Shown here: piece after piece, positions 18,830-36,526 of the stretch | Layout of the letters: each line of letters begins with the position of its first letter | Position numbering within the stretch: the first letter of the stretch is position 1 | From: Gemmatimonadota bacterium | GTDB lineage: Bacteria; ARS69 | Reading direction: 5' to 3' | Length of the DNA stretch: 64,000 bases | Assembly: GCA_030747075.1 (NCBI GenBank) | Contig: JASLLL010000013.1 | Span: forward strand, 1 to 64,000 | The notes under the pieces: generated by a model | The model's database searches: none | Told to the model about the DNA's origin: nothing | What the model saw: only the letters and a program-made list of their open reading frames with translations | Position numbers and translations under genes: made by a program

Positions 18830-18833
<4 letters not shown>

Positions 18834-19648
18834 TCGATCTGCACTGCCATATCCTCCCCGGACTCGACGATGGTGCCGCGGATGATCACCAGGCGCTGGC
18901 CATGGCGAGAGCGGCTGTGGACATGGGCATTCAGGAGGTGGCGGCCACTTCGCACTTCGGGTTCTTCTCGTTGTTCTCCGCAGACTCCGGGAGCATTCGC
19001 GCGGAGCGGGATCGTCTGGTAGAACTCGTTGCGGCCGAGGGGATTCCTCTGGAGATTCACCCCGGTGCGGAGAACTACTACGGGGAGATGGAGCCCGCAG
19101 AGTTTGCATCGCGGGCGATCCCTCTGGCGGAAGGCCCGTATGTACTCATGGACTTCTCTTTTCGGCGGGTCCCGGAGACTCTGGCGGAGGGTCTCGCCCG
19201 GCTTCGGCAGGGGGGGCGGATCCCTGTGATCGCTCACCCGGAGCGGAATCGGGAAGTTCAGCTGCTGCCGAAGATTGTGGTGGACTGGTTGGATGCGGGA
19301 GCCATGCTGCAGGTGAATGCCTCCAGCCTGACAGGACTGCTTGGCGAAGATGCACAGTTGGCGGCGGAGACACTTCTGGCTGCGGGAGCCGTGCAGATAC
19401 TCGGCTCGGATGCACACGACCTCAGCCGACGCCCGTTCTGCCTGAGCGCGGGAGAGGCGGCGGCGGCGGACATCGTGGGAGCGGATGCAGCAGCACGAAT
19501 GGTACGCGATACCCCCCGGGCCGTGTTGCGCGGGGAGAAGATAGAAGTTCGGAGCCCGGATTCGGATCGGCTGAGCGGAGGAGCATCGCTCTTCGACCGG
19601 ATGTTCGGGCGGGGGCGGGGCCAGACCGAGCAAGGAGATCGAGAGTGA
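18830..19648 (+). CDS. CpsB/YwqE-type PHP tyrosine-protein phosphatase
   Basis: 272 residues, GTG start overlapping the alaS stop. The PHP metal-binding motifs are complete: DLHCHILPGLDDG at the N-terminus, TSHF, the VIAHPERN motif and a late SDAHD. CpsB/Wzb-like PHP phosphatases dephosphorylate BY-kinases that control capsule assembly. The only BY-kinase-like protein in the window (54144) has lost its P-loop. The gene overlaps rmlA by 4 bases and begins the polysaccharide locus. A histidinol-phosphatase-like activity is a less likely alternative. Confidence 0.85.
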
Positions 19649-20712
19649 AAGGCCTGATTCTCTCCGGAGGGAAGGGAACACGACTGAGACCCATCACGCA
19701 CACGAGTGCCAAGCAACTGGTGCCGGTCGCGAACAAGCCGATCCTCTTCTTCGCCATTGAAGCCGTGCGCGACGCGGGGGTCGAGGAGATCGGGATCGTG
19801 GTGGGGGAGACGGGTGCGGAGATTCGCGCGGCCGTGGGGGACGGGTCCGCGTTCGGCGTGAAGATCACCTACATCCCGCAGGAGAATCCGCTCGGACTGG
19901 CGCACGCCGTCAAGGTCTCGCGGGACTTCCTCGGCGAGGATCCATTTGTGATGTTTCTGGGCGACAACCTCATCAAGGACGGGATCACCCCACTGGTGGA
20001 CGAGTTCCGGCGAGACGGCCCGAACTCGCAGATCCTCCTCGCGAGCGTGCCCAACCCGTCGGAGTTCGGGGTGGCGGAGATTGCGGACGGGAAGGTCGTC
20101 GGGTTGGAAGAGAAACCCGCGCAGCCGAAGTCGGAGTTCGCGCTGGTGGGCGTCTACATGTTCGACCGGAGCATTCACGAGGCGGTGGACAACATCCAGC
20201 CTTCCGCACGGGGAGAACTGGAGATCACCGATGCCATCCAGTATCTGATCGACCACGACTTCGATGTACGCAGCCATGTCATTCGTGGCTGGTGGAAGGA
20301 CACCGGGAAACTGGAGGACATGCTGGAAGCCAACCGGATTGTGCTGAGCAGTCTGGAGCGACGCATCGACGGGGAAGTGGACGATCGGAGCCGTATCATC
20401 GGAGAGGTCGTCGTGGGGAAGGGGGCGCGTGTGGAAAACTCCGAACTTCGCGGGCCGCTTATCCTGGGAGAGGGTGCGGTCGTGAAGGACTCCTATGTCG
20501 GGCCGTTCACATCCATTTCGGATCAGTGCGAAGTGCTTTCGTCGGAGGTGGAGTTCTCCATCATCCTGAAGGGCGGGCGCGTCCACGATCTGGACCGGCG
20601 TATGGAAGGGAGTCTTGTGGGGCGCAACGCCACCATCCTCTCTTCCGCCGTCCGTCCCCGGGCGTACCGGTTCATGGTGGGCGACAACTCCGAGGTCCGG
20701 GTCCCCCGATGA
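19645..20712 (+). CDS. rmlA: Glucose-1-phosphate thymidylyltransferase, long form
   Basis: 355 residues, GTG start. The N-terminal nucleotidyltransferase motif LILSGGKGTRLRPIT with SAKQLVPVANKPIL is characteristic of dTTP:glucose-1-phosphate enzymes. From about residue 240, hexapeptide-like strand repeats (IIGEVVVGKGARVENSEL) form a left-handed beta-helix, as in the long, roughly 355-residue RmlA subgroup rather than the 290-residue RfbA. It gives dTDP-glucose for deoxysugar synthesis. It overlaps rmlD as ATGA; rmlB and rmlC are not in the window. Confidence 0.9.
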   Translation: MKGLILSGGKGTRLRPITHTSAKQLVPVANKPILFFAIEAVRDAGVEEIGIVVGETGAEIRAAVGDGSAFGVKITYIPQENPLGLAHAVKVSRDFLGEDPFVMFLGDNLIKDGITPLVDEFRRDGPNSQILLASVPNPSEFGVAEIADGKVVGLEEKPAQPKSEFALVGVYMFDRSIHEAVDNIQPSARGELEITDAIQYLIDHDFDVRSHVIRGWWKDTGKLEDMLEANRIVLSSLERRIDGEVDDRSRIIGEVVVGKGARVENSELRGPLILGEGAVVKDSYVGPFTSISDQCEVLSSEVEFSIILKGGRVHDLDRRMEGSLVGRNATILSSAVRPRAYRFMVGDNSEVRVPR

Positions 20713-21608
20713 GCGCCGAACGAGGCGGTGAGTCCGCATCTCAGGCGACGGTTCGCGTGGCGGCCACCGGGTGCGCGGGCATGCTCGGGAGGGAGCTGGG
20801 TGCAGAGGCTGCGGCGCGGGGCGTGCCGTTCACCGGGTGGGATCTTCCGGACTTTGACCTGACGGATCGAGAAGCCGTGATGCGGGAGATCGGGTCGGCG
20901 CGACCGGATGTGGTAATCCATGCCGCCGCATGGACGGATGTGGATGGCTGCGAGTCGAATCCTTCGAAGGCGTTTCTTGTGAACGGACGGGCCACGGCGC
21001 ATGTCGTGGAGGCGTGCCGGGAAGCGGGGGCGCGCGTCGTCCATGTCTCCACGGACTATGTGTTCCCGGGAGACCTCGACCGCCCGTACCGCGAGGACGA
21101 TCTGCCCGGTCCGCTTTCCGTCTACGGTTGGTCGAAACTTGCCGGGGAGGAAGCGGTCCGTTCGCTGGGGGACGCGGGTGCCATTGCGCGGACCGCCTGG
21201 CTGTATGCGGGCCACGGTGCGAACTTCCTCCGCACGATGCTGCGTCTCGGCCGGGAGAGGGATTCCCTGGCCGTGGTCGACGACCAGTTGGGTTCACCGA
21301 CCTTTGCGGGAGATCTTGCGCGGGTGTTGCTTGATCTCGCGATCGAAGGCGGGAGCGGCACATTTCACACCACCAACACCGGTTCGGTCACCTGGCACGG
21401 CTTCGCCAGCGCCATCTTTGCGGCGGCCGGAATCGGCGTCGAAGTGAAGGCGGTGACGAGTGCGGACTTCCCCCGACCGGCTCACCGCCCCGCGAACTCC
21501 GTGTTGCTGGATTCCCGGCTTGCTGATGCGGGGATTCATCCGATGCCGTCGTGGGAAGACGGGCTGGCCCGGTGCTTTGCGGGAATGGCGAAGGAAGGTG
21601 CGGCATGA
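20709..21608 (+). CDS. rmlD: dTDP-4-dehydrorhamnose reductase
   Basis: 299 residues from the ATG that overlaps the rmlA stop; the longer upstream frame is a shadow of rmlA. It is an extended short-chain reductase: a modified glycine motif ATGCAGMLGREL near residue 18, IHAAAWTDVDGCE, the STDYVFPG motif, and the YGWSKLAGE catalytic Tyr-Lys pair. It performs the last step of dTDP-L-rhamnose synthesis. The stop overlaps the ABC permease gene as ATGA. Confidence 0.92.
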   Translation: MSAERGGESASQATVRVAATGCAGMLGRELGAEAAARGVPFTGWDLPDFDLTDREAVMREIGSARPDVVIHAAAWTDVDGCESNPSKAFLVNGRATAHVVEACREAGARVVHVSTDYVFPGDLDRPYREDDLPGPLSVYGWSKLAGEEAVRSLGDAGAIARTAWLYAGHGANFLRTMLRLGRERDSLAVVDDQLGSPTFAGDLARVLLDLAIEGGSGTFHTTNTGSVTWHGFASAIFAAAGIGVEVKAVTSADFPRPAHRPANSVLLDSRLADAGIHPMPSWEDGLARCFAGMAKEGAA

Positions 21609-22453
21609 CGGAAGACAGCGCGGCAGTCATCGCGGCCGGGCGCGCGGACTACGACTCGGCGGTTCGGCGCGGCCGGGCGATCGACGAACTGAGTGAGTTG
21701 TTCCGATTTCGCCATCTGGTCGTACAGCTCGTGAAGCGGAATGTCACCTCGCGGTACAAGCGGTCATTCCTGGGACTGGCGTGGACTCTCCTTGATCCAC
21801 TCCTCACGATGGGCGTGATGGCTGCCGTGTATTCCGCGATTATCCGGGATCGGGTGGAGGCCTTCCCTGTCTACATCTTGTCCGGGCTGGTGATCTGGAA
21901 TTTCTTCTCGCAGTCGAGCACTCAGGCGATCACCTACTTCCTGCACGGGCGGGCGCTCCTCGGGCGCGTGTACATGCCCAAGGCGACGATGGGGGTGGCG
22001 GCGGTCGGCACCGGTTTCGTCAACCTGGTGGCGTCCATCATTCCACTGATGGTGTTCATGGTGATCTTCCGATGCCAGTTCACTCCCGCGCTGCTCTTCG
22101 TGCCGGTCGCCATTCTGCTGGCGTCTGCATTCACGCTGGGTGTCGGGCTCCTGGTGTCCGCATGGTCGGTTTTCTTCGGAGACATGGAGAACATTTTCCG
22201 GTTTCTCCTGCGGCTGGCCATGTATCTGTCCGGGATTTTCTACTCGCTGGACATCCTGCCGGAGCAGCTGAGACGGGTTGTCTGGTGTATGCCGACCTAT
22301 CATCTGATTGAACTGTTCCGATCCCCCGTTCACACCGGGACTCTCCCGGACGGTCAGAGCATTCTGATTGGAGTCGCATGGTCGCTGGGTTTCCTTCTCG
22401 CAGGTTTCGGGTACTTCGCACGAAAGTCGAATGCGTATGCATACCGACTCTGA
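21605..22453 (+). CDS. wzm: ABC-2 type polysaccharide export permease (Wzm-like)
   Basis: 282 residues. The start ATG overlaps rmlD. An amphipathic N-terminal region with LVKRNVTSRYKRSFLGLAW, the hallmark of ABC-2 glycan exporters, precedes about six membrane segments. With the ATPase encoded next it would export a completed undecaprenyl-linked polysaccharide (O-antigen or capsule) across the inner membrane. The 3' end overlaps the ATPase gene by 23 bases. Confidence 0.9.
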   Translation: MTEDSAAVIAAGRADYDSAVRRGRAIDELSELFRFRHLVVQLVKRNVTSRYKRSFLGLAWTLLDPLLTMGVMAAVYSAIIRDRVEAFPVYILSGLVIWNFFSQSSTQAITYFLHGRALLGRVYMPKATMGVAAVGTGFVNLVASIIPLMVFMVIFRCQFTPALLFVPVAILLASAFTLGVGLLVSAWSVFFGDMENIFRFLLRLAMYLSGIFYSLDILPEQLRRVVWCMPTYHLIELFRSPVHTGTLPDGQSILIGVAWSLGFLLAGFGYFARKSNAYAYRL

Positions 22454-23252
22454 CAGCCCGCGCGTAGCGGAACAGGCGTCGGAGAGACCCCCGGCGCTTC
22501 TTCTGTCCGGAGTGTCGGTGGCTTTCGAATCGCACCGAACACCGGCGGCCACTCTGAAGGAACACCTGATCCGCTGGACCAAGCGGGATCTTGAGAAGAA
22601 GAGTGTCCGCGCTCTGGACGGACTGGATCTGCGGGTGGATCGGGGAGAGGTGTTTGGGATCGTCGGGAGAAACGGGGCGGGGAAGAGCACTCTCCTGCGC
22701 GTGATTTCCGGCATCCTGCACCCGTCTCGGGGAAGGGTTCGAGTCTGGGGGAAGGTCACGCCGCTTCTCGGCGTCGGTGCCGGGTTCCACGGCGATCTGA
22801 CCGGGCGGGAGAATATCGCGCTTTACTCGGCCATCCTCGGGCGAAGCCCGGAGCGTACCCGTGAGCTGGTGGACGACATCATCCGCTTCTCCGAACTTGC
22901 GGACTTTATCGACGCGCCGCTTCGCGTGTACTCCGCGGGCATGTCCGCACGGCTCGGATTCGCCGTCGCACTGGCCGAGTCGCCGGAGGTCCTTCTGGTT
23001 GATGAAGTGCTCGGCGTCGGGGACGAACAGTTCCGCCGGAAGTGCCGGGACCGCTTTGAAGAGATCCGCAAGGCCGGCGCCACCATTGTCATCGTGACGC
23101 ACTCGATGTCCGTTGCCAAAGAGATGTGCGACCGACTGGCGTGGATCGAGAATGGCAAGGTCCGCGAGTGCGGGACTTCCGAAGAAGTGGCCGCATCCTA
23201 TGTGGAGTTCCAGAAGGCGGTTCGGAGCGCCTCCACGATCCGCCCCCGCTGA
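22431..23252 (+). CDS. wzt: ABC polysaccharide exporter ATPase (Wzt-like)
   Basis: About 273 residues from ATG 22431 (or 22437). Walker A GRNGAGKST, the signature YSAGMSARLGFAVA (typical of teichoic acid/O-antigen exporters rather than LSGGQ) and Walker B VLLVDEVLG are in order, followed by the D-loop and H-loop THSMS. It ends soon after the ATPase domain, so it lacks the large C-terminal carbohydrate-binding domain found in some Wzt proteins that recognise a terminal cap. It forms the exporter with the preceding permease. Confidence 0.92.
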   Translation: MRMHTDSDSPRVAEQASERPPALLLSGVSVAFESHRTPAATLKEHLIRWTKRDLEKKSVRALDGLDLRVDRGEVFGIVGRNGAGKSTLLRVISGILHPSRGRVRVWGKVTPLLGVGAGFHGDLTGRENIALYSAILGRSPERTRELVDDIIRFSELADFIDAPLRVYSAGMSARLGFAVALAESPEVLLVDEVLGVGDEQFRRKCRDRFEEIRKAGATIVIVTHSMSVAKEMCDRLAWIENGKVRECGTSEEVAASYVEFQKAVRSASTIRPR

Positions 23253-23415
23253 TCGGAACCGCACTTCTCGCTCGCGGACGGGGCGAGCCGGGTCGCGGGC
23301 GGCCGCTTGACTCGGCTCCTTTCGCGTGGGAGCATCGCTCGACCCGGCCACTGATTCCCACCGTTCTGCGCAGCCCGGGCAGGTTCCCCGAGAGCCTGTG
23401 CGGAGGAGGCGCCCC
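23253..23415 (+). promoter_or_regulatory. Intergenic gap with hairpin and weak promoter-like pair
   Basis: This 163-base gap holds a small hairpin (GCTCGC 23270-23275, GCGAGC 23283-23288) without a U-tract, and TTGACT (23307-23312) 17 bases before GAGCAT (23330-23335), a weak promoter-like pair. A very strong Shine-Dalgarno, GGAGGAGG (23402-23409), decides the start of the next gene. Confidence 0.3.
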
Positions 23416-26400
23416 TTGCGACCCGTGATTCTCGTGCTTGGCATGCATCGAAGCGGCACTTCCGCAGTGGCGGGGGCCGTACGGATGCTCGGCGTAGACC
23501 TCGGGGATTCGCTGATGCCGGGACGCGCGGGGGAGAACCCACAGGGTTTCTTCGAAGACACCCGCGTCATGGCCGCCAACGAGAACATTCTGGAGTCCGC
23601 AGCGTCCTCGTGGGATGACCCCTTTGGAATCGATCCGGGCTGGTTTGATTCGGATGAAGGGAAGCCCCATGCGCGAGACCTTTCATCGCTTCTCGTGGGG
23701 ATGTTCCCGGAGGATGCGCTGTGCGGAGTGAAAGACCCGCGCATCTGTCGGTTGCTTCCCGTGTGGACGGCCGCACTGGAGCAGGCGGGACTCGCGCCCC
23801 ATGTCCTTCTGGTGACCAGGCCTTGCGCGGAGGTCGCCGATTCGCTGGCTCGAAGGAACGGCTTCTCGCGTGAGAAGTCGGCCTTCCTCTGGGCCGACCA
23901 TGTCCTTCGGGCGGAGGAGGGGACGCGGAGGATCCCGCGAGTGTTCCTGCCCTATGCGGACCTGCTGGAGAATCCCGCCGGGGTGCTGGCCGGAGCGGGA
24001 CACGCTCTGGGAATCACCTGGCCGGTATCTCCGGAGGCGGCCTCGACACGGCTGCGCGCATTTGTCACCGGCGAGCTTCGGCACCACCGGGTCGGGGACG
24101 CGGAGAAGTCGCATCGTCGCGCAGACGGATTCGTGCGGGAACTGGATCTGCTGCTGGAAAGCGTCGCGGGCGGTTGCGGCGGCGGCGGCACGACCCGGTT
24201 TGACCGAATGGCGGAGCAAGTGGCGGCCGTCCTTCCCCGAATGGATCCGCTCTGGCAGGAACACTTGAGCCGTGGCGTCCGGGTGGCGGATCAAGTTGCG
24301 GGGCTGGAACAGACCTTGTCCGATCGGACCGAGTGGCTGCGTGCGTCGGCGGAGGAAGTGAAGAGTCTTCGGGCCGCCGTGGAGGAGATGCGCAACGCCG
24401 GATCCAAAGACGCGACCCGCCTGCGGGTGGAAGTGGAGGAGATTCGCGCCGCGACGCTGGATGTCGGCCGGCGCGTGGATCGTCTGGACTTCTTCCGGCT
24501 TGGCATGCGACTGGTCCGGTTCTCTCGACGGGTGGCGGGCCGCCTGGTGCGCGGCGCGGCGCGGCGAAGGAGCGCCCTTCACGGCAGACTCCGCGACGCA
24601 TTCCTGAAGCGGCCGGTGACCCGCGCGCGAGTGACTGGGATTGCACTGCCTCAGCATGAACATCCGGATGTCTCGATCATCATCCCCGTGTTCAACCAGA
24701 CGGGTCATACCGTCCGGTGCCTGGAATCGCTGGCGGCATTGCGGGAGGAGACCTCCTTCGAGGTGGTCCTGGTGGATGACGCCTCCACGGCCGCGTCGAT
24801 TGGCCTGCTGGCGTCGGTAAGGTCGATCCGACTCGTGCGAAACGAACGCAATCTCGGGTTTGTGCATTCGTGCAATCGGGGCGCGAAGGAGGCGAAGGGG
24901 CGGCACCTTCTCTTCCTGAACAACGACACGCGCGTGGAGCCGGGTTTCCTGGACCGGCTTCGGGCCTCTTTGGAGGAGTTCCCGGATGCGGGGATTGTGG
25001 GTGCCCAACTGGTGTACCCGGACGGCCGCCTGCAGGAATCGGGCGGGATCGTCTGGGAGGACGCCAGTGCGTGGAATTACGGTCACGGGAGAGACCCGTC
25101 CGCACCGGAGGTTTCGTATCTTCGCGAAGTCGATTACTGCTCCGGTGCATGCATCCTGGTGGACCGGAGTCTGTTCAACGAACTGGGCGGGTTCGATGAG
25201 CGGTACGCTCCCGCCTACTACGAAGATGTGGATCTTGCTTTTCGCGTTCGCGAGGCCGGTCGACGCGTGCTTGTCAACCCTGTGGCGCGTGTCATTCATT
25301 GCGAAGGTGCCACTTCCGGTACGGACCCGGAGAGTGGTGTGAAGCGGTACCAGGTGCGCAACCAGCAGATCTTCCTGGATCGATGGCGGAAGGAACTTGG
25401 CTGCCACGGCCGAAACGGGGAAGACCCGGAACGGGCGAAGGAGCGGAAGGCCCGTTCCCGCGTCCTCGTCATCGACCACCGTATGCCGACTCCCGATCAG
25501 GACGCGGGATCGCAGCGAATCCAATGGATGATGCGGATTCTTCGCGACCTCGGCCATCGAGTGACCTTTCTGCCCGACAATCTACTCCCGTCCGAACCCT
25601 ACGGGGCAGACCTTCGCGCGCTGGGCGTGGAGGTATGGCAGTCACCGCACCTCAGGACGATCCGCCACTTCCTGGAGTGCCGGGGGAGCGAGTTCGATCT
25701 TGTGATTCTGAGCCGTCTGGGTACGGCGGGAACTCATATCGATGATGTGCGGAGGCTCTGTCCGCGGGCGCGGGTCGTCTTCGATACGGTGGACCTGCAC
25801 TTTCTTCGTGAAGAGCGGGCCGCAGAGTTGACCGGGAGTGCCGCCGATCTCGCGGCCGCGCGGGAGACACGCACGCGGGAACTCTCGGTGGCCCGCCGTG
25901 CGCACGAGACGCTGGTCGTCAGTGAAGAGGAACGCGAACTCATCCAGAGCATCGATCCGAATCTCGCCGTGCGTATCGTCCCCACCATCCACGAGACTTC
26001 CGCGTCCGGGCTTCCATTCGAGGAGCGGCACGGACTTCTCTTCGTGGGGGGGTTCGAGCATCCGCCCAATGCTGATGGCGTCCGGTGGTTCGTGGAGACC
26101 GTGCTGCCGATGGTACGGGAGGAACTGCCGGATGTTTCGCTTCGGATCGTGGGCAGCAAGCCGACACCGGAGATGGATGCTCTCGCGGGACGGGGCGTGG
26201 ATGTCGCCGGGTGGGTGCCGGATCTCGAAGCGCTTCTCCGCGAGTCCCGGGTATCCATCGCGCCGCTCCGGTTTGGCGCCGGGGTGAAGGGGAAAGTCTG
26301 CGAGAGCCTCGCGCACGGGTTGCCGACCGTGGGAACGAGCATCGCCTGCGAGGGGATGGCGCTCACTCATCGAACAGACATCTGCATCGCGGACACGGCG

Positions 26401-26598
26401 CACGACTTCGCGCGGGAAGTGGTGCGTCTGCATCAGGATCGTGCCTTGTGGACGCAGTTGGCCTCAGCGGGGCAGGAAGTGATCCGGAACCGGTTCTCTC
26501 CCGCCGTAGCCAGGGACGCACTTCGACGACTGGGGCGCGGCCCCGCCGAATCCCCCCGGGGGGGACTCCTGGCGGTGGAAGCCCAACTACTCTCATGA
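23416..26598 (+). CDS. Trimodular sulfotransferase-like / GT2 / GT4 protein
   Basis: 1060 residues from a TTG six bases after GGAGGAGG. Residues about 4-240 resemble a sulfotransferase: VLGMHRSGTSAVAGAV is the 5'-phosphosulfate (PAPS) loop pattern. Residues about 275-345 are charged coiled coil. Residues about 415-660 are a GT2 domain (SIIIPVFNQTGHT, VLVDDAST, LFLNNDTRVEPGFL). Residues about 680-1045 resemble a GT-B/GT4 domain (LLFVGGFEHPPNADGVRWF, GAGVKGKVCESLAHGLP). It probably builds and may sulfate a surface glycan. The sulfotransferase role is inferred from fold only. Fusion of all three modules in one chain is unusual. Confidence 0.85.
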   Translation: MRPVILVLGMHRSGTSAVAGAVRMLGVDLGDSLMPGRAGENPQGFFEDTRVMAANENILESAASSWDDPFGIDPGWFDSDEGKPHARDLSSLLVGMFPEDALCGVKDPRICRLLPVWTAALEQAGLAPHVLLVTRPCAEVADSLARRNGFSREKSAFLWADHVLRAEEGTRRIPRVFLPYADLLENPAGVLAGAGHALGITWPVSPEAASTRLRAFVTGELRHHRVGDAEKSHRRADGFVRELDLLLESVAGGCGGGGTTRFDRMAEQVAAVLPRMDPLWQEHLSRGVRVADQVAGLEQTLSDRTEWLRASAEEVKSLRAAVEEMRNAGSKDATRLRVEVEEIRAATLDVGRRVDRLDFFRLGMRLVRFSRRVAGRLVRGAARRRSALHGRLRDAFLKRPVTRARVTGIALPQHEHPDVSIIIPVFNQTGHTVRCLESLAALREETSFEVVLVDDASTAASIGLLASVRSIRLVRNERNLGFVHSCNRGAKEAKGRHLLFLNNDTRVEPGFLDRLRASLEEFPDAGIVGAQLVYPDGRLQESGGIVWEDASAWNYGHGRDPSAPEVSYLREVDYCSGACILVDRSLFNELGGFDERYAPAYYEDVDLAFRVREAGRRVLVNPVARVIHCEGATSGTDPESGVKRYQVRNQQIFLDRWRKELGCHGRNGEDPERAKERKARSRVLVIDHRMPTPDQDAGSQRIQWMMRILRDLGHRVTFLPDNLLPSEPYGADLRALGVEVWQSPHLRTIRHFLECRGSEFDLVILSRLGTAGTHIDDVRRLCPRARVVFDTVDLHFLREERAAELTGSAADLAAARETRTRELSVARRAHETLVVSEEERELIQSIDPNLAVRIVPTIHETSASGLPFEERHGLLFVGGFEHPPNADGVRWFVETVLPMVREELPDVSLRIVGSKPTPEMDALAGRGVDVAGWVPDLEALLRESRVSIAPLRFGAGVKGKVCESLAHGLPTVGTSIACEGMALTHRTDICIADTAHDFAREVVRLHQDRALWTQLASAGQEVIRNRFSPAVARDALRRLGRGPAESPRGGLLAVEAQLLS

Positions 26599-26614
26599 CA
26601 GGAGGCGACCAGAA

Positions 26615-28078
26615 ATGGCATTGACCGCACTGGCCGGTCCACCCGGAGTGGGGAAGACCACCCACCTCATTGGAAGGCTCGAGGACGCGCAGAATGCCGG
26701 GAATCCCACGGCGCTCTTTTTGTGCAGCGACTCGGACGATCTTCGATCGCGCCCGAATGTCCGGGAAGGCGGCACCATGGGATGTCGCACTCCCGGGATG
26801 GGCGCGACCATTGACCACTTCGTTTCGGCAGCGGAAGCAGGCCGTATCCTCTCGGAACTTCCCGCCGGGAGCCTGGCGGCCTTCGACGAAGCGGCGTGGT
26901 TCGGTGTGGACATCGTGGAGGCGTGGATCGAAGCGGAGCGGCGAGGAGTGGATGTCGTGGTGTCTTCGCTCTCCGAGCAGCAGGTGGCAATCCTGAAAGA
27001 GCGAAGCTACCCGGTCACGCGGCTTACCGTACCCTGCATGCTTTGCGGGAAGGACCGGGGGCGTCACTCGCACGAACTGTTCCACACGGCGGAGCGCGGT
27101 TTCGTCGTGGTGTGCGATGCCTGTCGCGAGGCGGTCGCCAGGAACCAATGCCGATCGGAACCTTCTTCTCTGGATGGTGAACTCTGCGAGGAGCTCACTT
27201 CGGAACTCAGGCGCATGAAGCCCTTCCCGGGAAAGGAGCACGCGTATCAGCCGGTCTTCGGGTTGGACCTCCCGGGCTGGGAACTGGTGCGGGGAGACAC
27301 GCCGATTCGCGCGGACCTCATTCGAGAGGTGCTGGAGGCGGCCTTCCCGGCGTGGAGCGCGTCATCGAGGGCGGGCGAAGCCGACGGTCGTCCCAGCTTC
27401 ATCGATCTGGGATGCTGCACCGGGTTTTTCTGCGAGTACTTTGCGGCGCGGGGATGGGAGGCCTGGGGGCTGGACATCGACGAGGACTTCATCGCGCTGG
27501 CTCGGCGCGTGTCACAGGCTCTTGGAAGCGGAGTGGAGTACTGCCAGTCCGCGCTTCTTCCCCATGTGCAGGGCCATCCCGGCGCCCGGTTTGATGTGAC
27601 CACTTCGTTCGCGACCGTGCAGTGGGTGATCGCCCAGAGCGGTCTGGATGCGGGGCTGGAGTGCTTCGACTGGATCTTCGGCGCGGCGCGGAAGATGTGT
27701 GTTCTTGAGATGGGCTACTCGGAAGAGGAGATCTACCGGGAGAAGCTGCCCGTGCGCATCGACCGCGAGTGGGTTGAAGAACTCATGCGAACCCGTGGAG
27801 GATTCGACGAGGTTCTCGTGATTCCGAAGGGATCGCGGGGCGTCTGGCGAGATCTCTTCATCGGTCTGAAGGATCCGGAAGTGTGCGGAGTGACCGTGTC
27901 CGGGGAGGGCGCGGCCGAACCGGGCCGACCCGCGCCCGTATGGAACGCGGCCGGTATTCTAGGGCTGGCAGCGCGTGCCGTGCGAAACCCGGGGCGCGTC
28001 GTGCAACTGGGCGGGAAGGCCGTACAGGATCCGGCGAGGGCGATGCGCGAACTGGGGCGGCGGTTGCGCGGCGGTTGA
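26615..28078 (+). CDS. Thymidine-kinase-like domain fused to a SAM methyltransferase
   Basis: 487 residues; GGAGG (26601-26605) nine bases upstream. The N-terminal 200 residues look like type II thymidine kinase: P-loop GPPGVGKT (8-15), FDEAAWF (90-96) in the place of the TK DEAQFF with the catalytic Glu kept, and zinc cysteine pairs CMLC (141-144) and CDAC (167-170). From about 255, IDLGCCTGFFCEYF (SAM motif I, D264) and GLDIDEDFIALARR define a class I methyltransferase. The C-terminal 50 residues are basic. The gene sits among glycosyltransferases and ends eight bases from a convergent gene. The substrate is unknown; I do not call it a functional thymidine kinase. Confidence 0.75.
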   Translation: MALTALAGPPGVGKTTHLIGRLEDAQNAGNPTALFLCSDSDDLRSRPNVREGGTMGCRTPGMGATIDHFVSAAEAGRILSELPAGSLAAFDEAAWFGVDIVEAWIEAERRGVDVVVSSLSEQQVAILKERSYPVTRLTVPCMLCGKDRGRHSHELFHTAERGFVVVCDACREAVARNQCRSEPSSLDGELCEELTSELRRMKPFPGKEHAYQPVFGLDLPGWELVRGDTPIRADLIREVLEAAFPAWSASSRAGEADGRPSFIDLGCCTGFFCEYFAARGWEAWGLDIDEDFIALARRVSQALGSGVEYCQSALLPHVQGHPGARFDVTTSFATVQWVIAQSGLDAGLECFDWIFGAARKMCVLEMGYSEEEIYREKLPVRIDREWVEELMRTRGGFDEVLVIPKGSRGVWRDLFIGLKDPEVCGVTVSGEGAAEPGRPAPVWNAAGILGLAARAVRNPGRVVQLGGKAVQDPARAMRELGRRLRGG

Positions 28079-28086
28079 TCGTTCGT

Positions 28087-29733
28087 TCACCGAAGCGTGG
28101 ACGCCAGCCTCGCGCGATGCGGATCCAGGAAGGGGCATTCGGACTCCCGGTTCATCGCGATCGGGAGCAGCGGGTCTTCCGTCAGGCGCGATCTCCACCG
28201 CTGCCGCATGGTGATGACTTCCCGCGGGTCAAGGAGACGGCTGCGGGTGCGGGTCTCGTGGTGGATCAACTCGGCACGCGGCTCGTACAGAATCCGCCCT
28301 CCGCGCTGAGTCAGCCGGAGGCACAGGTCGACATCGTTGAACGAGACGGGCAGATCTCCGGCGTCGAGTCCCCCCAACTCCTCAAAGGCGCCGCGACGAA
28401 CCAGGAGGCAGGCGGCGGTGGCCGCCGAGACTTCCCGTGCGGTACGAGCTCCGGTTCCCGGAAAAACCTCGCGCCCTCCCGAAGAACCCCACTCCCGACC
28501 CAGATGACCCGCGACCGTGCCGATCCCGAGCCCAATGCCCGCGTGCTGGCAGGTGCCGTCGGGATAGAGCAGCCGCGCGCCCACCGCGTCCACGCCCGGC
28601 CAGTGCATGGCGGCGACGAGGTGCGTGAGCCATGCGCCGTCGATCGCTTCCGTGTCGTTGTTGAGCATCAGGAGGAAGTCCCCGCTCGCTTCCGCTGCGG
28701 CTGTGTTCGTGATCCGGGCGAAGTTGAAGGAGCCTCCCTCGCGAATCACGCGTACCCCGGCGTGCTTTTCGGCCTCTTCCAGCAGGTGAAGCGCACGCGG
28801 ATCTGTCGTGAGGTGATCCACCAGAATCACCTCGTGACGGACTCCGCCATCCAGCCGCTCGATGGAGTTGAGGAGTCGGCCGAGCAGGTCCGGCTGATCT
28901 CGCGTCGGGATCAGGAGGGACACGAGGGGGTCGGCATCGATCCGGGGGTGGATGCTCAGTGTCTCCGGATCGTCTCCCGCACTCACCGGGGCCGCCGTCC
29001 CCCGATCGGCGAGAAACGATGCCACCGCATCCATCCGCCCGCGCAGAGGGCCGAAGAGCGGGTCGTCGTCGCGCTCCGGCCGACGAAGGACCGGCAGCGG
29101 CAGGTGGCGCACAGCGTCGGCTTCGTCGGTCGCCCGAAGAAGCACATCGGTCCAGTCGGCTCCCTCCCGCAGTCGTCTTGAGGCAGCCTGCGCGGGGATG
29201 GCGGTCGCGGCGCCCGGGAACCTACCGGGGTGCGTCAGCGCGAGAAGCGGACTCCACGCCGGCTTGAGATCACCTCGGAGGGAGCCACCGGGAGCAAGCC
29301 GGACTTCGTCCGCGTACAGCACACCGCCCTCGTCGAGATCGGCAATGTGCCCAAGCCACGCATTTCCCGAATCGGACACGAACTCGTCGCCCGCAGCCAG
29401 CGCGACCCACCTCTCGCCGGGACGCTCCACGGCGGGAGGCGCCTCCCCGCGGCACACATCACTTGCGGGGAGACCGGCGCCGAGGAGCGAATCCCGGGTT
29501 CGCTGTTCGTCCCCCTCTCCGAAGAGCAGGACGCGGACGGGGGCCGGGGAGCGACAAACGCGAACCGCGGGACGCGCCCGGGCCACGGCGGACAGCCATC
29601 GCCGGATCTGTTCAGCCTCGGTGCGCCGCTGCTCGATGCGGCCGCGGAGGCGTCGCACGATTCTGCCGAACGCATGGAACCCCTCGGCGCGAATGAGAGT
29701 GCGGGCTGCGCGCACGCGGTGAAGAAGGTTCAC
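28087..29733 (-). CDS. GT2 family glycosyltransferase
   Basis: 548 residues. The minus-strand GTG at 29733 has a GGAGA seven bases upstream and lies just after the previous gene's stop; the longer frame is antisense noise. The second half is a GT2 (GT-A) domain: VSLLIPTRDQPDLLGRLL, the EVILVD strand, LLMLNNDTEAID with the DxD-like motif, and a late FNDVDLCLRL motif. The first 250 residues are a helical, poorly recognised extension that may be a second degenerate glycosyltransferase. It is the last gene of a three-gene minus-strand operon converging on the TK-like gene. Confidence 0.85.
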   Translation of the reverse strand: MNLLHRVRAARTLIRAEGFHAFGRIVRRLRGRIEQRRTEAEQIRRWLSAVARARPAVRVCRSPAPVRVLLFGEGDEQRTRDSLLGAGLPASDVCRGEAPPAVERPGERWVALAAGDEFVSDSGNAWLGHIADLDEGGVLYADEVRLAPGGSLRGDLKPAWSPLLALTHPGRFPGAATAIPAQAASRRLREGADWTDVLLRATDEADAVRHLPLPVLRRPERDDDPLFGPLRGRMDAVASFLADRGTAAPVSAGDDPETLSIHPRIDADPLVSLLIPTRDQPDLLGRLLNSIERLDGGVRHEVILVDHLTTDPRALHLLEEAEKHAGVRVIREGGSFNFARITNTAAAEASGDFLLMLNNDTEAIDGAWLTHLVAAMHWPGVDAVGARLLYPDGTCQHAGIGLGIGTVAGHLGREWGSSGGREVFPGTGARTAREVSAATAACLLVRRGAFEELGGLDAGDLPVSFNDVDLCLRLTQRGGRILYEPRAELIHHETRTRSRLLDPREVITMRQRWRSRLTEDPLLPIAMNRESECPFLDPHRARLASTLR

Positions 29734-29737
29734 GGGT

Positions 29738-30850
29738 TCATCTCCCCGCCGCCCTGCGATATCCGTCCCGCGTCGCCCGCGCAGTTTCCGCCCAGTCGAA
29801 GAGGGCGGCGCGGGCCGGGCCGAGTGCCGCGAGTTCCCCGCGACGGCGGTCGTCCATCCAGAGCCGCGCGAGGGCATCCGCAAGCGCACGGGCGGTCTCC
29901 ACCGATGCAAACGCGGCCGCGTCGCCCAGGACTTCGCGATGCGGAGGGATGTCGCTGGCGAGCACCGGCCCGCCGCAGGCCGCCGCTTCCAGCGCGGGGA
30001 GCCCGAAGCCTTCGCATCGCGAGGGAACGAGTACCAGTCTCGCTCCGGCATACAGAAGCGGAAGGTCGGTGTCGGTTACGGGACACAGGATGCGGACGCG
30101 CGAAACCCCCGCGGCAATGGGTTCCAGTCTGGCGCGGGTTTCGTGATCGCGTGCCGGGATGACGAGTTCCGCGTCGGCGAGTCCCGCGGCGCGAAACGCA
30201 CGGAGCGCGCCGTCGAGATTCTTGTGGGGCCGATGCGAAGCGACGCAGAGGAGGAAGGGCCGTGTGAGACCCCGACCCGCCAGGAACTCCGTCACGCTCT
30301 CAGGCGATGGCGGAGCGAACACAGGCGCAACGGCGTGGGGGATCACCGTGAACCGGTCGGCCGGAGCGCGAAGGCACCGGGTCAGCTCCGCCCGGGCCGC
30401 TTCCGAGCCGGTGAAGAGAACGGCGGACGACCGGATCGACCACGCCATCATGATGCGGGCGTAGAGCCGGTGGAGCGGAGAGCGGGGGAAGAGCAAGTGG
30501 ATGGGGTCATGCATCGTGACCACCACGCGGCACCCGGGAGCCGCCGAGCGCACATAGTGCGGGAAGTGCAGAACATCGAGCTGATGCCGGCTTGCCGCGC
30601 CACGGAAGGCCGCCAGTTCCTTCACGCTGTAGAGCGGCGCACGGCATTGCGCCAGCCGGAAGCGCTCCGGGTCGAGGAGTTCAGGCAGTCCCCCCGGAAG
30701 CGCACGGAGATCCGGCTCCGGAAGAAAGAGCGTGTACCGCTCCGGACCGTGGAGTCCGGCGAGCCCCGTGAGGAGTCCCTCAAGGTATCGTCCGATTCCG
30801 AAGTCGCGGATCTTGCGCGCATCGATGCCGATGTGCAGCGGAGCAGTCAT
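29738..30850 (-). CDS. GT4 family glycosyltransferase
   Basis: 370 residues; the ATG at 30850 overlaps the upstream gene's stop as ATGA, so the long N-terminal extension of the open frame is not used. The GT-B fold shows HIGIDARKIRDFGIGRYL at the N-terminus, the CVASHRPHKNLDGALRAF strand-loop that opens the C-terminal domain, and the EGFGLPALEAAACGGPV motif with the conserved E-x7-E pair that binds the nucleotide sugar. Sugar and acceptor are unknown. The next gene begins five bases downstream on the same strand. Confidence 0.92.
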   Translation of the reverse strand: MTAPLHIGIDARKIRDFGIGRYLEGLLTGLAGLHGPERYTLFLPEPDLRALPGGLPELLDPERFRLAQCRAPLYSVKELAAFRGAASRHQLDVLHFPHYVRSAAPGCRVVVTMHDPIHLLFPRSPLHRLYARIMMAWSIRSSAVLFTGSEAARAELTRCLRAPADRFTVIPHAVAPVFAPPSPESVTEFLAGRGLTRPFLLCVASHRPHKNLDGALRAFRAAGLADAELVIPARDHETRARLEPIAAGVSRVRILCPVTDTDLPLLYAGARLVLVPSRCEGFGLPALEAAACGGPVLASDIPPHREVLGDAAAFASVETARALADALARLWMDDRRRGELAALGPARAALFDWAETARATRDGYRRAAGR

Positions 30851-31986
30851 CGGTCGGCGGCCTCCATGGCTTTGCGGTAGGTGTCCAGCGTAGCGCGTGC
30901 GGCTGCTTTCCATGAGAACTTCTTCGCCCGGACCTGCCCCGCGCTCCTCAGTGCGGCATGGAGTTCGGGATCGTTGAGCGCGCGGAGAATGCCGCGGGCG
31001 ATCGAGCCCGGTTCGTGCGGATCGATCATGACGGCGGCTTCGCCCGCGATCTCCCGAATGGATGGGATCGCGCTGGCCACCACGGGCACGCCGCACGCCA
31101 TCGCTTCCAGTACGGGCAGACCGAATCCCTCTTCGAACGAAGGGAAGACGAACGCTTCCGCCCCGGAGTAGAGCGCCGGGAGATCCTTCGCATCCACGAA
31201 TCCGGTTGTGAGGACGGAATCCGCGGGGTCGTCACCCTCCAGGGCGCGGACGAACTCGCTCTCAAGCCATGCGGCCTTCCCCGCCACGACGAGGCGGAGG
31301 TTGCTTTCGTGGGCGTTGCGCACTTCCCGAAAGGCACGCAGCAGTCCGGGGAGGTTCTTGCGAGGCTCCAGATTCCCCACGAAGAGAAGGTACGGTTGCG
31401 AGATGTTCAGCTTGTGCAGGACCTCGTCCACCCGCGTGGGAGTCTCCGGGGAGAAGCGGGATGCCACGCCGTGGGGGATGGCGTCGATCCTGTGGGCCGG
31501 AATGTGGAAGGCGGCGCACAGATTCTCCCGCATGGCACCCGATCCCGTGATGACGCGGGTCGCGCGGCGCAGGGACTTCGGGATGAGCCAGCGCATGTAG
31601 GCGGCGTATCGACGGGGGATGGTCTGCGGGTGCGTAAAGGCGATCAGGTCGTGGATTGTGGCAACAGCGACGGGCTTTCCGGGGAAGAGGGGGACGAGGT
31701 AGTTCGGTCCGTGGATGAGATCCACGCCGAGCTTTCTGGCCCGGCGGGGCAGGACGAAGTGCTCCCATGCGTCACCCGACGGATGGCTTTCGTGAGAGAA
31801 GGGGGCCTCGATCAGCTGGAATCGACCGTCGAGGTCGAGCCCCCGCAGGGCCGTCTCCGCAGGGGCAAGGAGCAGGAACTCGTGGTCGCTGTCGATCTGC
31901 GAGAAGCCCCTCACCAGCTCAAGGACATAGTTCCCCACGCCGGAGAACTCACGCCCCACCGTTCGGGCATCGAGGAGGATTCGCAT
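30847..31986 (-). CDS. GT4 family glycosyltransferase
   Basis: 379 residues. A GT-B protein: LLDARTVGREFSGVGNYV at the N-terminus, VATIHDLIAFTHP, LLFVGNLEPRKNLPGLLRAF, and EEGFGLPVLEAMACGVPVV with the E-x7-E motif. It is the first gene of the minus-strand trio and a clear paralogue of the next gene. On the minus strand a hairpin (31998-32015) hides the GGGAGG Shine-Dalgarno upstream of its ATG. It shares a 133-base divergent region with the plus-strand GT4 at 32120. Confidence 0.92.
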   Translation of the reverse strand: MRILLDARTVGREFSGVGNYVLELVRGFSQIDSDHEFLLLAPAETALRGLDLDGRFQLIEAPFSHESHPSGDAWEHFVLPRRARKLGVDLIHGPNYLVPLFPGKPVAVATIHDLIAFTHPQTIPRRYAAYMRWLIPKSLRRATRVITGSGAMRENLCAAFHIPAHRIDAIPHGVASRFSPETPTRVDEVLHKLNISQPYLLFVGNLEPRKNLPGLLRAFREVRNAHESNLRLVVAGKAAWLESEFVRALEGDDPADSVLTTGFVDAKDLPALYSGAEAFVFPSFEEGFGLPVLEAMACGVPVVASAIPSIREIAGEAAVMIDPHEPGSIARGILRALNDPELHAALRSAGQVRAKKFSWKAAARATLDTYRKAMEAADR

Positions 31987-33362: not shown

Positions 33363-33944
33363 ATGGACATCGACGGAATCCGGGAGTCCATGACGGAGAC
33401 CGTGCGCGTGCTGGAGCGTCTCCGGGACGAGACCGCTCCGGCAGTGGCCGCCGTCTCCGAGGAGCTTGTTCGGTGTGTGACGGCCGGTGGGCGCATCCTG
33501 GTCTGCGGCAATGGAGGGAGCGCGGCGGACTCCCAGCACATGGCCACGGAACTCACGGTCCGGTTCCGGAAGCAGCGCCGTGCGATTTCCGCGCTTGCCC
33601 TCACGGTGGATTCCTCGGTGCTTACCGCAGCTTCCAACGATCTGGGCTTCGCGAAGGTGTTCAGTCGCCAGGTGGAAGCTCACGGGAAGGCGGGAGATGT
33701 GCTGATCGCGATCTCCACCAGTGGGAACTCACCGAATGTGGTGGAGGCGGTCCGTGAGGCCCGCGTGCGGGGACTGGTCACCGTGGCGCTCACGGGAGCG
33801 GCGGGGGGGGCGCTTGCCTCGGAAGTGGACCACTGGATCGGCGTGCCTTCCGAAGAGACTCCACAGATTCAGGAAGCGCATCTCGTGGTGGAACACCTGC
33901 TCTGCGAAGCCATGGAAGACGCGGTGGCGGAGGATGCGCCGTGA
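33363..33944 (+). CDS. gmhA: Phosphoheptose isomerase (sedoheptulose-7-phosphate isomerase)
   Basis: 193 residues from the ATG after a GGGGAG Shine-Dalgarno. GmhA isomerises sedoheptulose 7-phosphate to D-glycero-manno-heptose 7-phosphate for heptose-containing glycans. The SIS-domain motifs LVCGNGGSAADSQHMATEL and ISTSGNSPNVVEA are present, with the active-site glutamate after QHMAT and the C-terminal histidine in AHLVVEHLLCE. A TTGACA at 33270 lacks a convincing -10. The 3' end overlaps the phosphotransferase gene as GTGA. Confidence 0.94.
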   Translation: MDIDGIRESMTETVRVLERLRDETAPAVAAVSEELVRCVTAGGRILVCGNGGSAADSQHMATELTVRFRKQRRAISALALTVDSSVLTAASNDLGFAKVFSRQVEAHGKAGDVLIAISTSGNSPNVVEAVREARVRGLVTVALTGAAGGALASEVDHWIGVPSEETPQIQEAHLVVEHLLCEAMEDAVAEDAP

Positions 33945-35479
33945 CACCGGGAGACACCACCACGCCTCCGTCCACGGGAGGAGCCCCGCCGACGCTCCCG
34001 CGTGCGGCGATCGCGGATCGGGCGATGCGTCGCATCCTGAAGTCCGCGTCCACCGTTCCGACGCCCTCGGCCTCGTCTCTGGAACCCGCGCTCTTTGCCG
34101 CCATCTGGGTGGCACTGGACGGCATCGCGGTGACGACGGCATTTCTTGCGGCGTACTGGATCCGGTTCACCTCCGCGTGGATTCCCGCTCCACTCGGCGT
34201 GCCGCCTCTGGCGACCTATGTGCCGGTTCTCGCGGTGGTGCTTCCGGTGTCGATCTGGGCTTATCGCCGCTGTGGCCTCTACCGGCCCGGCCGCGTCTCC
34301 TCCTTCAGCCGGGATTCGCTGTCCGGCGTGAGAGCGGCGGCTCTTGCGGTCGTGGTGCTGGTAGCGGCGGCCTTCTTCTACCGCAGCACTTCCTTCTCCC
34401 GGGGGTTTGTCGCGCTCTTCTGGGTGGCGACGACCGTGGCATTCCCGGTGTTTCGCCGCGTGGCATCGGTGGTGCATGGTGGGCTTCGCAAGAGGGGACA
34501 CGGCGTGGCACGGATCGCCATTCTTGGCGGGGGAGAGGTGGCGCGTCGGCTGGAGGAAGAGATCCGCTCCGGCCCGGGCTCCGGGTTGATCGTTGCGGCA
34601 TCACTCGGAGGAGACGACTGGCGTCCGCCCGGCGTTTCCCCGGAGTCTTCCGAGGATCGAGCGCTGCGGACCGCCAGAGTTCGAAACCTCGTCCGGTCCC
34701 GGAGGATTCACCGCATCCTGGTGACGGATGCCGGGCTCTCCTTCGACAGCCGCATGGACCTCATGGAAGAGTGCCATTCGCTGGGGATTTCCTGCGGATT
34801 CGTCCCGGATCTCTTTGAGGTGCTCGTGGGGAGGACCCATGTCGAGGACATCGGCGGGTTTCCGCTGGTCGGGTTCCGGATGTTTCCGCTGGACCGATGG
34901 GATCGGTTTCAGAAGCGTTCCCTGGACATCGCCGGGTCACTCCTGGGGCTGGTTGCGTTGCTGCCCCTTCTGGCGTTTGTCGCGCTCTGCGTGCGTCTGG
35001 ATTCGCCCGGTCCGGTCTTCTATCGCCAGCAGCGTCTGGGGCGGGACGGCCGTGAGTTCGACATTGTGAAGTTCCGTTCGATGCATCCCGGAGTGGAGAG
35101 CGACACCGGTCCCGTGCGTGCCCGTCGTACGGATGGTCGTCCCACTCGGGTGGGACGCGTGATCCGCCGTCTCAGTCTCGATGAGCTCCCTCAGCTGTGG
35201 AATGTCCTGCGAGGGGTGATGTCGCTGGTGGGACCACGCCCGGAGCGGCCTCATTTCGTAAGTGAATACCAGCGCAGAATCCCGCGCTATCTGGAGCGAC
35301 ATGAAGTGAAGTCCGGCATGACCGGCTGGGCACAGGTCAATGGTTTTCGGGGCGACACATCCATCGAGGGGCGCACCCGACTGGATCTGTGGTATCTGGA
35401 GAACTGGTCGCTGGCTCTGGATGTGAAGATCCTGGTGCTGACGGCCGTTCGGTTTCTCTTTCAGAAGGAGGCATTCTGA
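33941..35479 (+). CDS. Polyprenyl glycosylphosphotransferase (WbaP/WcaJ type)
   Basis: 512 residues, GTG start overlapping gmhA. Four N-terminal membrane segments (about residues 45-165) and a CoA-binding-like Rossmann region (ARIAILGGGEVARRLEEEI) precede the catalytic domain, which begins KRSLDIAGSLLGL and carries FYRQQRLGRDGREFDIVKFRSM, DELPQLWNVLRG and SLVGPRPERPHFV. This family transfers hexose-1-phosphate to undecaprenyl phosphate and initiates exopolysaccharide or O-antigen repeat synthesis. It is the likely priming enzyme of this locus. Confidence 0.94.
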   Translation: MTPGDTTTPPSTGGAPPTLPRAAIADRAMRRILKSASTVPTPSASSLEPALFAAIWVALDGIAVTTAFLAAYWIRFTSAWIPAPLGVPPLATYVPVLAVVLPVSIWAYRRCGLYRPGRVSSFSRDSLSGVRAAALAVVVLVAAAFFYRSTSFSRGFVALFWVATTVAFPVFRRVASVVHGGLRKRGHGVARIAILGGGEVARRLEEEIRSGPGSGLIVAASLGGDDWRPPGVSPESSEDRALRTARVRNLVRSRRIHRILVTDAGLSFDSRMDLMEECHSLGISCGFVPDLFEVLVGRTHVEDIGGFPLVGFRMFPLDRWDRFQKRSLDIAGSLLGLVALLPLLAFVALCVRLDSPGPVFYRQQRLGRDGREFDIVKFRSMHPGVESDTGPVRARRTDGRPTRVGRVIRRLSLDELPQLWNVLRGVMSLVGPRPERPHFVSEYQRRIPRYLERHEVKSGMTGWAQVNGFRGDTSIEGRTRLDLWYLENWSLALDVKILVLTAVRFLFQKEAF

Positions 35480-35870: not shown

Positions 35871-36526
35871 GCACCGCCGAGACGACGCGCCCCATCGTCA
35901 TTGGGATTGCAGGCGGGAGCGGGTCCGGGAAGACCACGGTCGCCCTGCGTGTGGCGGACCATTTCGAGAATCGGAAGGTGGTCATTCTCCATCACGACAG
36001 CTACTACCGGGATCGATCCGATCTCCCGCTGGAGGACCGGCGGCGCCTCAACTACGATCACCCGGACTCCTTCGAGAATGAACTGGTGGTCGAGCACCTG
36101 GTGGCGCTTCGTACGGGAGAGGCGATTCCACGCCCGACCTACAACTACGAGAGCCACTGCCGCGAGGAGAAGCCTGTCTCCGTGGGGCCAGCGCACATCA
36201 TTCTCCTGGAGGGGATTCTCGTATTGGATATCCCGGAGATCCGGGAGTTGCTGGACATCAAGCTGTATGTGGACTGCGCGGCGGACGAACGGCTGACGCG
36301 CCGCATCCTGCGCGATCTCCACGAACGCGGCCGTTCCGTGCATTCGGTTCTGAATCAGTACACGGACACGGTCCGCCCCATGCATCTTCAGTTCGTGGAA
36401 CCGTCCAAGCGTCACGCGGATGTGATCATCCCGAGGGGCGGGTTCAACGAGGTCGCCATAGACCTGATCGTTTCCCGGATGCGTGAGATTCTCACCAGAC
36501 TCAGCGAAGTCGAGGTGGAGCGATGA
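35867..36526 (+). CDS. udk: Uridine kinase
   Basis: 219 residues from the ATG overlapping the previous stop. Udk phosphorylates uridine and cytidine. P-loop IAGGSGSGKTTVA, LHHDSYYRD, the DHPDSF motif with the catalytic aspartate, PTYNYESHCR and LLEGILVL are all typical. The phosphoribulokinase family is related, but the spacing fits uridine kinase. Its position between a small flippase-like gene and a UbiA-type transferase, with 4-base overlaps on both sides, is unusual for a pyrimidine salvage gene. Confidence 0.93.
   Translation: MSTAETTRPIVIGIAGGSGSGKTTVALRVADHFENRKVVILHHDSYYRDRSDLPLEDRRRLNYDHPDSFENELVVEHLVALRTGEAIPRPTYNYESHCREEKPVSVGPAHIILLEGILVLDIPEIRELLDIKLYVDCAADERLTRRILRDLHERGRSVHSVLNQYTDTVRPMHLQFVEPSKRHADVIIPRGGFNEVAIDLIVSRMREILTRLSEVEVER

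Follow-up and report, generated by a model that had tools for sequence, protein, structure and literature searches.

The gene described here lies on the forward strand of a 64,000-nucleotide stretch of a Gemmatimonadota contig (JASLLL010000013.1, positions 1 to 64,000), hereafter the window. Positions 26615–28078 form an uninterrupted frame of 487 codons with an ATG start, and a Shine–Dalgarno sequence (AGGAGG, 26600–26605) is found 9 nt upstream of the ATG. The GC content at the three codon positions (0.69/0.51/0.75) is typical for genes in the window. The start is located 16 bases past the stop of the preceding gene, which encodes a 1090 aa glycosyltransferase. The gene, its tail and its neighbors are as follows:

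26615–28078, forward strand: whole gene for the thymidine kinase (TK)-like/WbdD-type methyltransferase fusion (P0001; 487 aa), supported by the open frame, the Shine–Dalgarno sequence, and Pfam and profile matches
27902–28075, forward strand: C-terminal tail (residues 430–487), basic and probably forming amphipathic helices by sequence inspection; no domain match in Pfam
18830–19648, forward strand: CpsB/CapC polysaccharide regulatory phosphatase (PF19567, 5.7e-42)
21551–22453, forward strand: ABC-2 polysaccharide exporter membrane subunit, Wzm-like (PF01061, 5.4e-18)
22368–23252, forward strand: ABC ATPase, Wzt-like, 294 aa (PF00005, 7.8e-20), Wzt_C absent
23326–26598, forward strand: 1090 aa protein with GT2 and GT4 domains (PF00535, 1.7e-21; PF13692, 9.6e-24), directly upstream of the fusion gene
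28087–31986, reverse strand: three glycosyltransferase genes (GT2, GT4, GT4; Pfam), convergent with the fusion gene
33941–35479, forward strand: initiating polyprenyl-phosphate sugar transferase (PF02397, 1.3e-65)

Together, the CpsB/CapC, Wzm, Wzt, glycosyltransferase and initiating transferase genes make it plausible that the cluster offers the fusion protein a substrate. Wzt_C is a carbohydrate-binding module that reads terminal caps, and the Wzt-like ATPase has no match to it in Pfam. About 58 residues follow the methyltransferase domain, no long coiled-coil ruler is present in the fusion protein, and Pfam detects no kinase family outside the TK-like domain. Two neighboring genes have features of their own. 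The upstream 1090 aa protein (23326–26598) begins with a motif resembling that of sulfotransferases, HRSGTS (Sulfotransfer_3, E = 0.18), and has, ahead of its GT2 and GT4 domains, a heptad-like stretch as in chain-length rulers. A UbiA-family prenyltransferase (36523–37407; PF01040, 1e-25) adjoins a uridine kinase gene and the glycan cluster, and could be a step of a decaprenyl-phosphate pentose pathway.

An earlier note on this DNA had proposed a TK-like domain fused to a SAM methyltransferase inside a glycan locus, and both the profile matches and the gene neighborhood bear this out. The landmarks that it listed, GPPGVGKT (residues 8–15), FDEAAWF (90–96), CMLCG (141–145), CDAC (167–170) and DLGCCTG (264–270), can all be read in the sequence. 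The features of the N-terminal domain are the following:

26615–27154, forward strand: TK1-like P-loop/zinc domain, residues 1–180 (NF003296, E = 9e-4; hhalign to TKs, E = 1.5e-9; TK-guided AF2 model)
26636–26659, forward strand: Walker A motif GPPGVGKT, aligning with the TK P-loop
26882–26902, forward strand: FDEAAWF, in which D91 and E92 align with the TK motif DEAQFF
27035–27049, forward strand: first zinc pair, CMLCG, from the sequence and the TK alignment
27113–27124, forward strand: second zinc pair, CDAC, from the sequence, with a lasso shorter than that of TKs

The Pfam TK search that the earlier note had suggested gave no match, whereas NCBIfam and hhalign both lead to TKs. Pfam finds nothing significant in residues 1–220, and a PF00265 search of the genome leaves the fusion locus unmatched even at E = 1; the same search recovers a normal TK at another locus of this genome (G000:C40, 171.9 bits), as it does in each of the four sister genomes. 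The weak PF00265 matches in the sister genomes were set aside, as those that were read are mostly PilT-type ATPases and not relatives of the TK-like domain. For the isolated N-terminal domain, the best NCBIfam match is thymidine kinase NF003296 (E = 9e-4, residues 5–153), with a score of 19.3 bits that falls below the curated cut-off of 183. By hhalign, the single sequence aligns with TKs from the genomes of the phylum and one outgroup at E = 6.8e-9, and at E = 1.5e-9 once phage TKs are added to the profile. The score to TKs is 63, compared with at most 27 for shuffled sequences (54–63 against 24–27 over the comparisons made). With the P-loop left out, residues 85–200 alone still align at E = 1e-8. 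Conversely, only 12–37 residues, including the P-loop, align with the control proteins Udk, Wzt, RecA-like, DnaX, FtsY and PilT. An AF2 model built with the TK alignment (pLDDT 65) has TKs as all of its top PDB matches (Z 14) ahead of a RecA-like fold (Z ~10), although the guidance by TK sequences makes this weak independent evidence of the fold. The unguided single-sequence model of the full protein (pLDDT 43) is too poor for its fold search to be meaningful. On these alignments, the N-terminal domain is assigned as a divergent TK1-type domain, related to TKs beyond the P-loop but remotely.

The domain retains the Walker A motif, D91–E92 and the cysteines at 141, 144, 167 and 170; the Glu of the DE motif is catalytic in TKs. 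The differences lie in the elements that bind the nucleoside in TK1 structures, the FxGxPF loop and the lasso: a seven-residue segment with the FxGxPF loop is absent, the lasso that links the two zinc pairs is shortened (alignment A5 for both), and DEAQFF has become DEAAWF. Because loop and lasso are lost, an acceptor other than a nucleoside is likely, and the domain is probably not a thymidine kinase. Ordinary thymidine kinase activity was dismissed on two counts, namely the loss of the nucleoside pocket and the presence of the normal TK at C40. The same changes bear on whether the substrate could be a nucleotide-activated or lipid-linked sugar, with the TK-like domain binding a dTDP-sugar or phosphorylating a precursor and the methyltransferase methylating its sugar. 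TK ancestry would suit binding of a thymidine moiety, and the cluster appears to include dTDP-sugar genes, as a sugar nucleotidylyltransferase-like and an RmlD-like gene can be made out by inspection at ~19645–21608. However, both elements by which TKs hold thymidine, the loop and the lasso, are missing or altered here, and the other kinases paired with relatives of the methyltransferase (see below) have no nucleoside-binding ancestry. A nucleotide-sugar substrate, which the earlier note had also considered, gained no positive support, and we regard a substrate of this kind as improbable.

The C-terminal domain carries the following features:

27227–27874, forward strand: WbdD-type class I methyltransferase domain, residues 205–420 (Methyltransf_11, 1.7e-10; WbdD PDB match; family profile)
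27245–27253, forward strand: YQP motif, residues 211–213, common to the four relatives aligned there (A4); probable counterpart of WbdD Tyr16
27308–27310, forward strand: Arg232, aligned with WbdD Arg36 (SAM-binding) in an invariant column of A4
27404–27424, forward strand: SAM-binding motif I, DLGCCTG, residues 264–270, from the sequence and alignment
27620–27625, forward strand: Gln336–Trp337, aligned at the position of the essential His132–His133 of WbdD
27848–27850, forward strand: Arg412 (in WRDLF), conserved wherever a relative extends this far; possible counterpart of WbdD Arg203

The methyltransferase half of the earlier prediction was confirmed by the Pfam match to Methyltransf_11 (E = 1.7e-10), and WbdD is among the best PDB matches of the domain (E = 1.7e-4). 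Against a profile of WbdD, L185, L188 and two domains of L193, the domain reaches E = 5e-18. The segments N-terminal and C-terminal to motif I match this family at 9e-5 and 5e-6, compared with E = 0.25 and 0.42 against three generic methyltransferases from the same and sister genomes. The methyltransferases L002 from the same genome and L173 and L174 from sister genomes match at motif I only and were discarded as generic. Four features mark the family: the YQP motif, DxGC, an Arg at the position of WbdD Arg36, and R-x-[LIVH]-[FIY] towards the C-terminus. In WbdD, roles have been described for Tyr16 and for Arg36, which binds SAM, and His132 and His133 are both essential for phosphate methylation (PMC3482155). 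Tyr211 probably corresponds to Tyr16 and Arg412 possibly to Arg203, the WbdD segments with Tyr16 and Arg203 lying outside the tool alignments. At the position of His132–His133, the fusion protein has QW, L185 has HH, L193 has HN and L188 has QW. In Pfam, NCBIfam and profile comparison, no match to a DNA or RNA methyltransferase family rivals the WbdD-type match. A PADLOC match to mad2 (5e-9) is confined to the methyltransferase and was not accepted as a sign of a defense role. From its motifs and profile matches, the C-terminal domain is placed in the WbdD-type methyltransferase family, with its SAM motifs intact.

Relatives of this methyltransferase were found stepwise, with L187 and L188 in a second phylum, L185 and L191 in a third, then the phage contigs L192 and L193, and finally 62 more candidates, among which membership of the distant ones in the WbdD-type family is graded, with no sharp boundary. 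The standalone relative L185 matches WbdD at 4.4e-11. Many of the partners are kinases. For instance, the methyltransferase is fused to an APH-like kinase in L192 (6e-4), to a protein kinase in L240 (1.9e-6), to GT4 and protein kinase domains in L254 (5.1e-9) and L218 (4.5e-8), and to a CTP-dependent riboflavin kinase domain in L243 (3.4e-5), while in L219 a RIO-like kinase gene (4.9e-5) overlaps the methyltransferase gene. ParB-like domains are fused to it in L188, L193 and L215 and adjacent in L191 and L193, and their best PDB match is SbnI (E = 0.0023). SbnI is an O-phosphoserine synthase, that is, a free serine kinase. L191 is an O-antigen-type cluster; glycosyltransferases are part of, or next to, L192, L193, L219, L254 and L218; L257 and L272 are glycosyltransferase–methyltransferase fusions. 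These last two, like L220 and L269, show no kinase. By these domain assignments, kinase pairing appears recurrent in the family, not universal.

Several of these loci merit separate mention. In the phage contig L243 (3872–4924), the pairing of a WbdD-type-related methyltransferase with PF01982 (3.4e-5) was unexpected. The phage proteins at L254:1177–3648 and L218:2222–4465 each resemble a complete glycan-modifying module within a single polypeptide. In the phage contig L193 (1499–5385), standalone and ParB-fused methyltransferase copies and a GT4 lie 3′ of a collagen-like (GPSGPS) gene, an arrangement that suggests tail-fiber glycan decoration. In L223, L252, L258, L262, L263 and L266, a recurrent N-terminal domain (LCLKVF...QN.FA..GLAPRVY...GG.FVDF) precedes the methyltransferase; it has no match in Pfam, and is kinase-like by eye (LCLKVF and VDFG-like motifs), resembling a minimal atypical kinase.

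The ParB-like partners also bring in the reading that the target has nothing to do with the glycan, being a protein, RNA or small molecule, and that the operon position is incidental. A 2025 survey described phage proteins that join the ParB fold to Methyltransf_23, reported that bacterial ParB-fold/SAM-methyltransferase fusions bind ATP, and interpreted such fusions as probable DNA methyltransferases (PMC12704722); this proposal, and the lack of an obvious glycan locus around the close relative L188 with its ParB-like partner, would fit such a target. Against it stand the start of the fusion gene 16 bases after a glycosyltransferase gene, inside the Wzm/Wzt/glycosyltransferase cluster, and the dominance of the WbdD-type match over any DNA or RNA methyltransferase family. 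A non-glycan target is rated marginally below the nucleotide sugar in probability.

The particular combination of TK-like domain and WbdD-type methyltransferase is rare or local, as full-protein searches of ~1,490 whole genomes at E cut-offs of 1e-6 to 1e-8 yielded no second fusion. Exact peptide patterns of the fusion protein found no relative in 84,980 genomes and viral contigs, and tblastn with the protein against plasmids and phages gave no match. Scanning all genomes for a degenerate DEAxxF/CxxCG/CxxC pattern was uninformative on recurrence, as the matches listed are apparently mostly DksA-like (one was read as DksA). Among the five genomes of the phylum, the WbdD-type methyltransferase is found in this genome only, and the four sister genomes have an ordinary TK only. 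The earlier note had raised the prospect of a fusion that is unique, with its parts separately encoded in close relatives; the first half agrees with the ~1,490 genomes, and the second does not, as no sister genome encodes the two parts as separate genes. A fusion seen once only could also be a decayed or chimeric gene that has no function, for example from an assembly join. This is barely credible, as the frame is open, its codon-position GC is normal, the motifs of each half are intact, and a strong Shine–Dalgarno sequence is present, all inside a 70.7 kb contig.

The reading we favor, with confidence poised midway, is that the protein is a WbdD-like glycan kinase–methyltransferase that caps or decorates an exported glycan with methyl-phosphate by means of a TK-like kinase. 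The TK-like domain would move a nucleotide phosphate onto a hydroxyl of the surface glycan, either during its growth or after its completion. The methyltransferase half would then methylate the glycan phosphate, so that an O-methyl-phosphate cap or decoration would be made ahead of Wzm/Wzt export. Phosphorylation and methylation of a surface group, one of the options in the earlier note, is thereby the best-supported reading, by way of a link to WbdD that the note did not contain. The evidence is drawn from sequence: the TK-like fold, the catalytic motifs, the lost nucleoside loops, the WbdD-type SAM domain, the export operon and the kinase pairing elsewhere. From these we infer that the kinase is active, that a glycan receives the phosphate, that this phosphate in turn receives the methyl group, and that the product lies at the chain end or as a decoration. 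As the Wzt lacks Wzt_C and the protein lacks a coiled coil, chain termination is doubtful, and decoration within the chain is just as possible.

The main reason for caution on phosphate methylation is the loss of the WbdD His pair. Gln336 and Trp337 in place of His132 and His133 count against a WbdD-like activity, but L188, with its ParB-like partner, likewise has QW. The absence of Wzt_C, of a coiled-coil ruler and of a second such fusion in the ~1,490 genomes also weighs against the favored reading. Alternatively, the methyltransferase could act directly on a sugar hydroxyl, the TK-like domain being a regulatory or docking nucleotide-binder with no glycan kinase activity. E. coli O8 WbdD is such a hydroxyl methyltransferase without R203, H132 and H133 (PMC3482155), and the missing phosphate-handling His pair and the Wzt without Wzt_C agree with this. 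It leaves unexplained why Walker A, DE and zinc sites should be intact, and why the family should be found repeatedly with kinases of several folds, needless for a hydroxyl methyltransferase. Direct methylation of a hydroxyl is unlikely, though the most probable of the alternatives considered.

To our knowledge, nucleoside phosphorylation is the only activity described for TK1-like enzymes elsewhere, a further point against the favored reading. That a TK1-type fold was recruited for a glycan hydroxyl and fused to a phosphate methyltransferase, as one more fold in a modular kinase-swapping system, is proposed tentatively, with slightly less assurance than the methyl-phosphate function itself. 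Methyl-phosphate capping of glycans is known from a few enterobacterial O antigens and two unrelated kinase folds. The fusion gene, together with its relatives, suggests a constant methyltransferase whose kinase partner is freely exchanged between at least four or five folds, in phages as well. If true, the YQP...DxGC methyltransferase would be a search handle for undetected phosphoglycan modifications, and the TK1 fold would extend beyond nucleosides.

Among known systems, the closest is WbdD of E. coli O9a and K. pneumoniae O3 (PDB 4AZS). In O9a, the WbdD kinase phosphorylates the sugar and its fused methyltransferase methylates the phosphate, which gives the O9a antigen its methyl-phosphate cap (PMC3482155). 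The fusion protein shares with WbdD the type of methyltransferase (with motif I and probable Tyr16 and Arg36 counterparts), the fusion to a kinase and the location beside an ABC glycan exporter. The WbdD kinase, however, is of the eukaryote-like type, occupies the C-terminal part and comes with a coiled coil, whereas that of the fusion protein is TK-like and N-terminal, with none; the fusion protein also has Gln–Trp for His132/133, and Wzt_C is missing from its Wzt. A second precedent is K. pneumoniae O7 ORF6, which also makes a terminal methyl-phosphate (PMC11231755) and, like the fusion protein, combines a methyltransferase with a kinase whose fold is unrelated to that of WbdD. In ORF6, the kinase resembles AmiN, the methyltransferase comes first, and CBM, coiled-coil and GT2 modules are present in the same protein. 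With type II TKs (PF00265; human TK1, bacterial Tdk), the N-terminal domain has in common the fold, Walker A, DE(A) and the zinc Cys pairs, but it scores below curated cut-offs, its FxGxPF loop is deleted, its lasso is shortened, DEAQFF is replaced by DEAAWF, and a methyltransferase is fused to it. The ParB-CTPase-fold/SAM-methyltransferase fusions (PMC12704722) also join a nucleotide-binding domain to a methyltransferase, but the nucleotide-binding fold is different and they were proposed as DNA methyltransferases. The fusion protein is thus a variant of the glycan kinase–methyltransferase kind, and neither a thymidine kinase nor WbdD.
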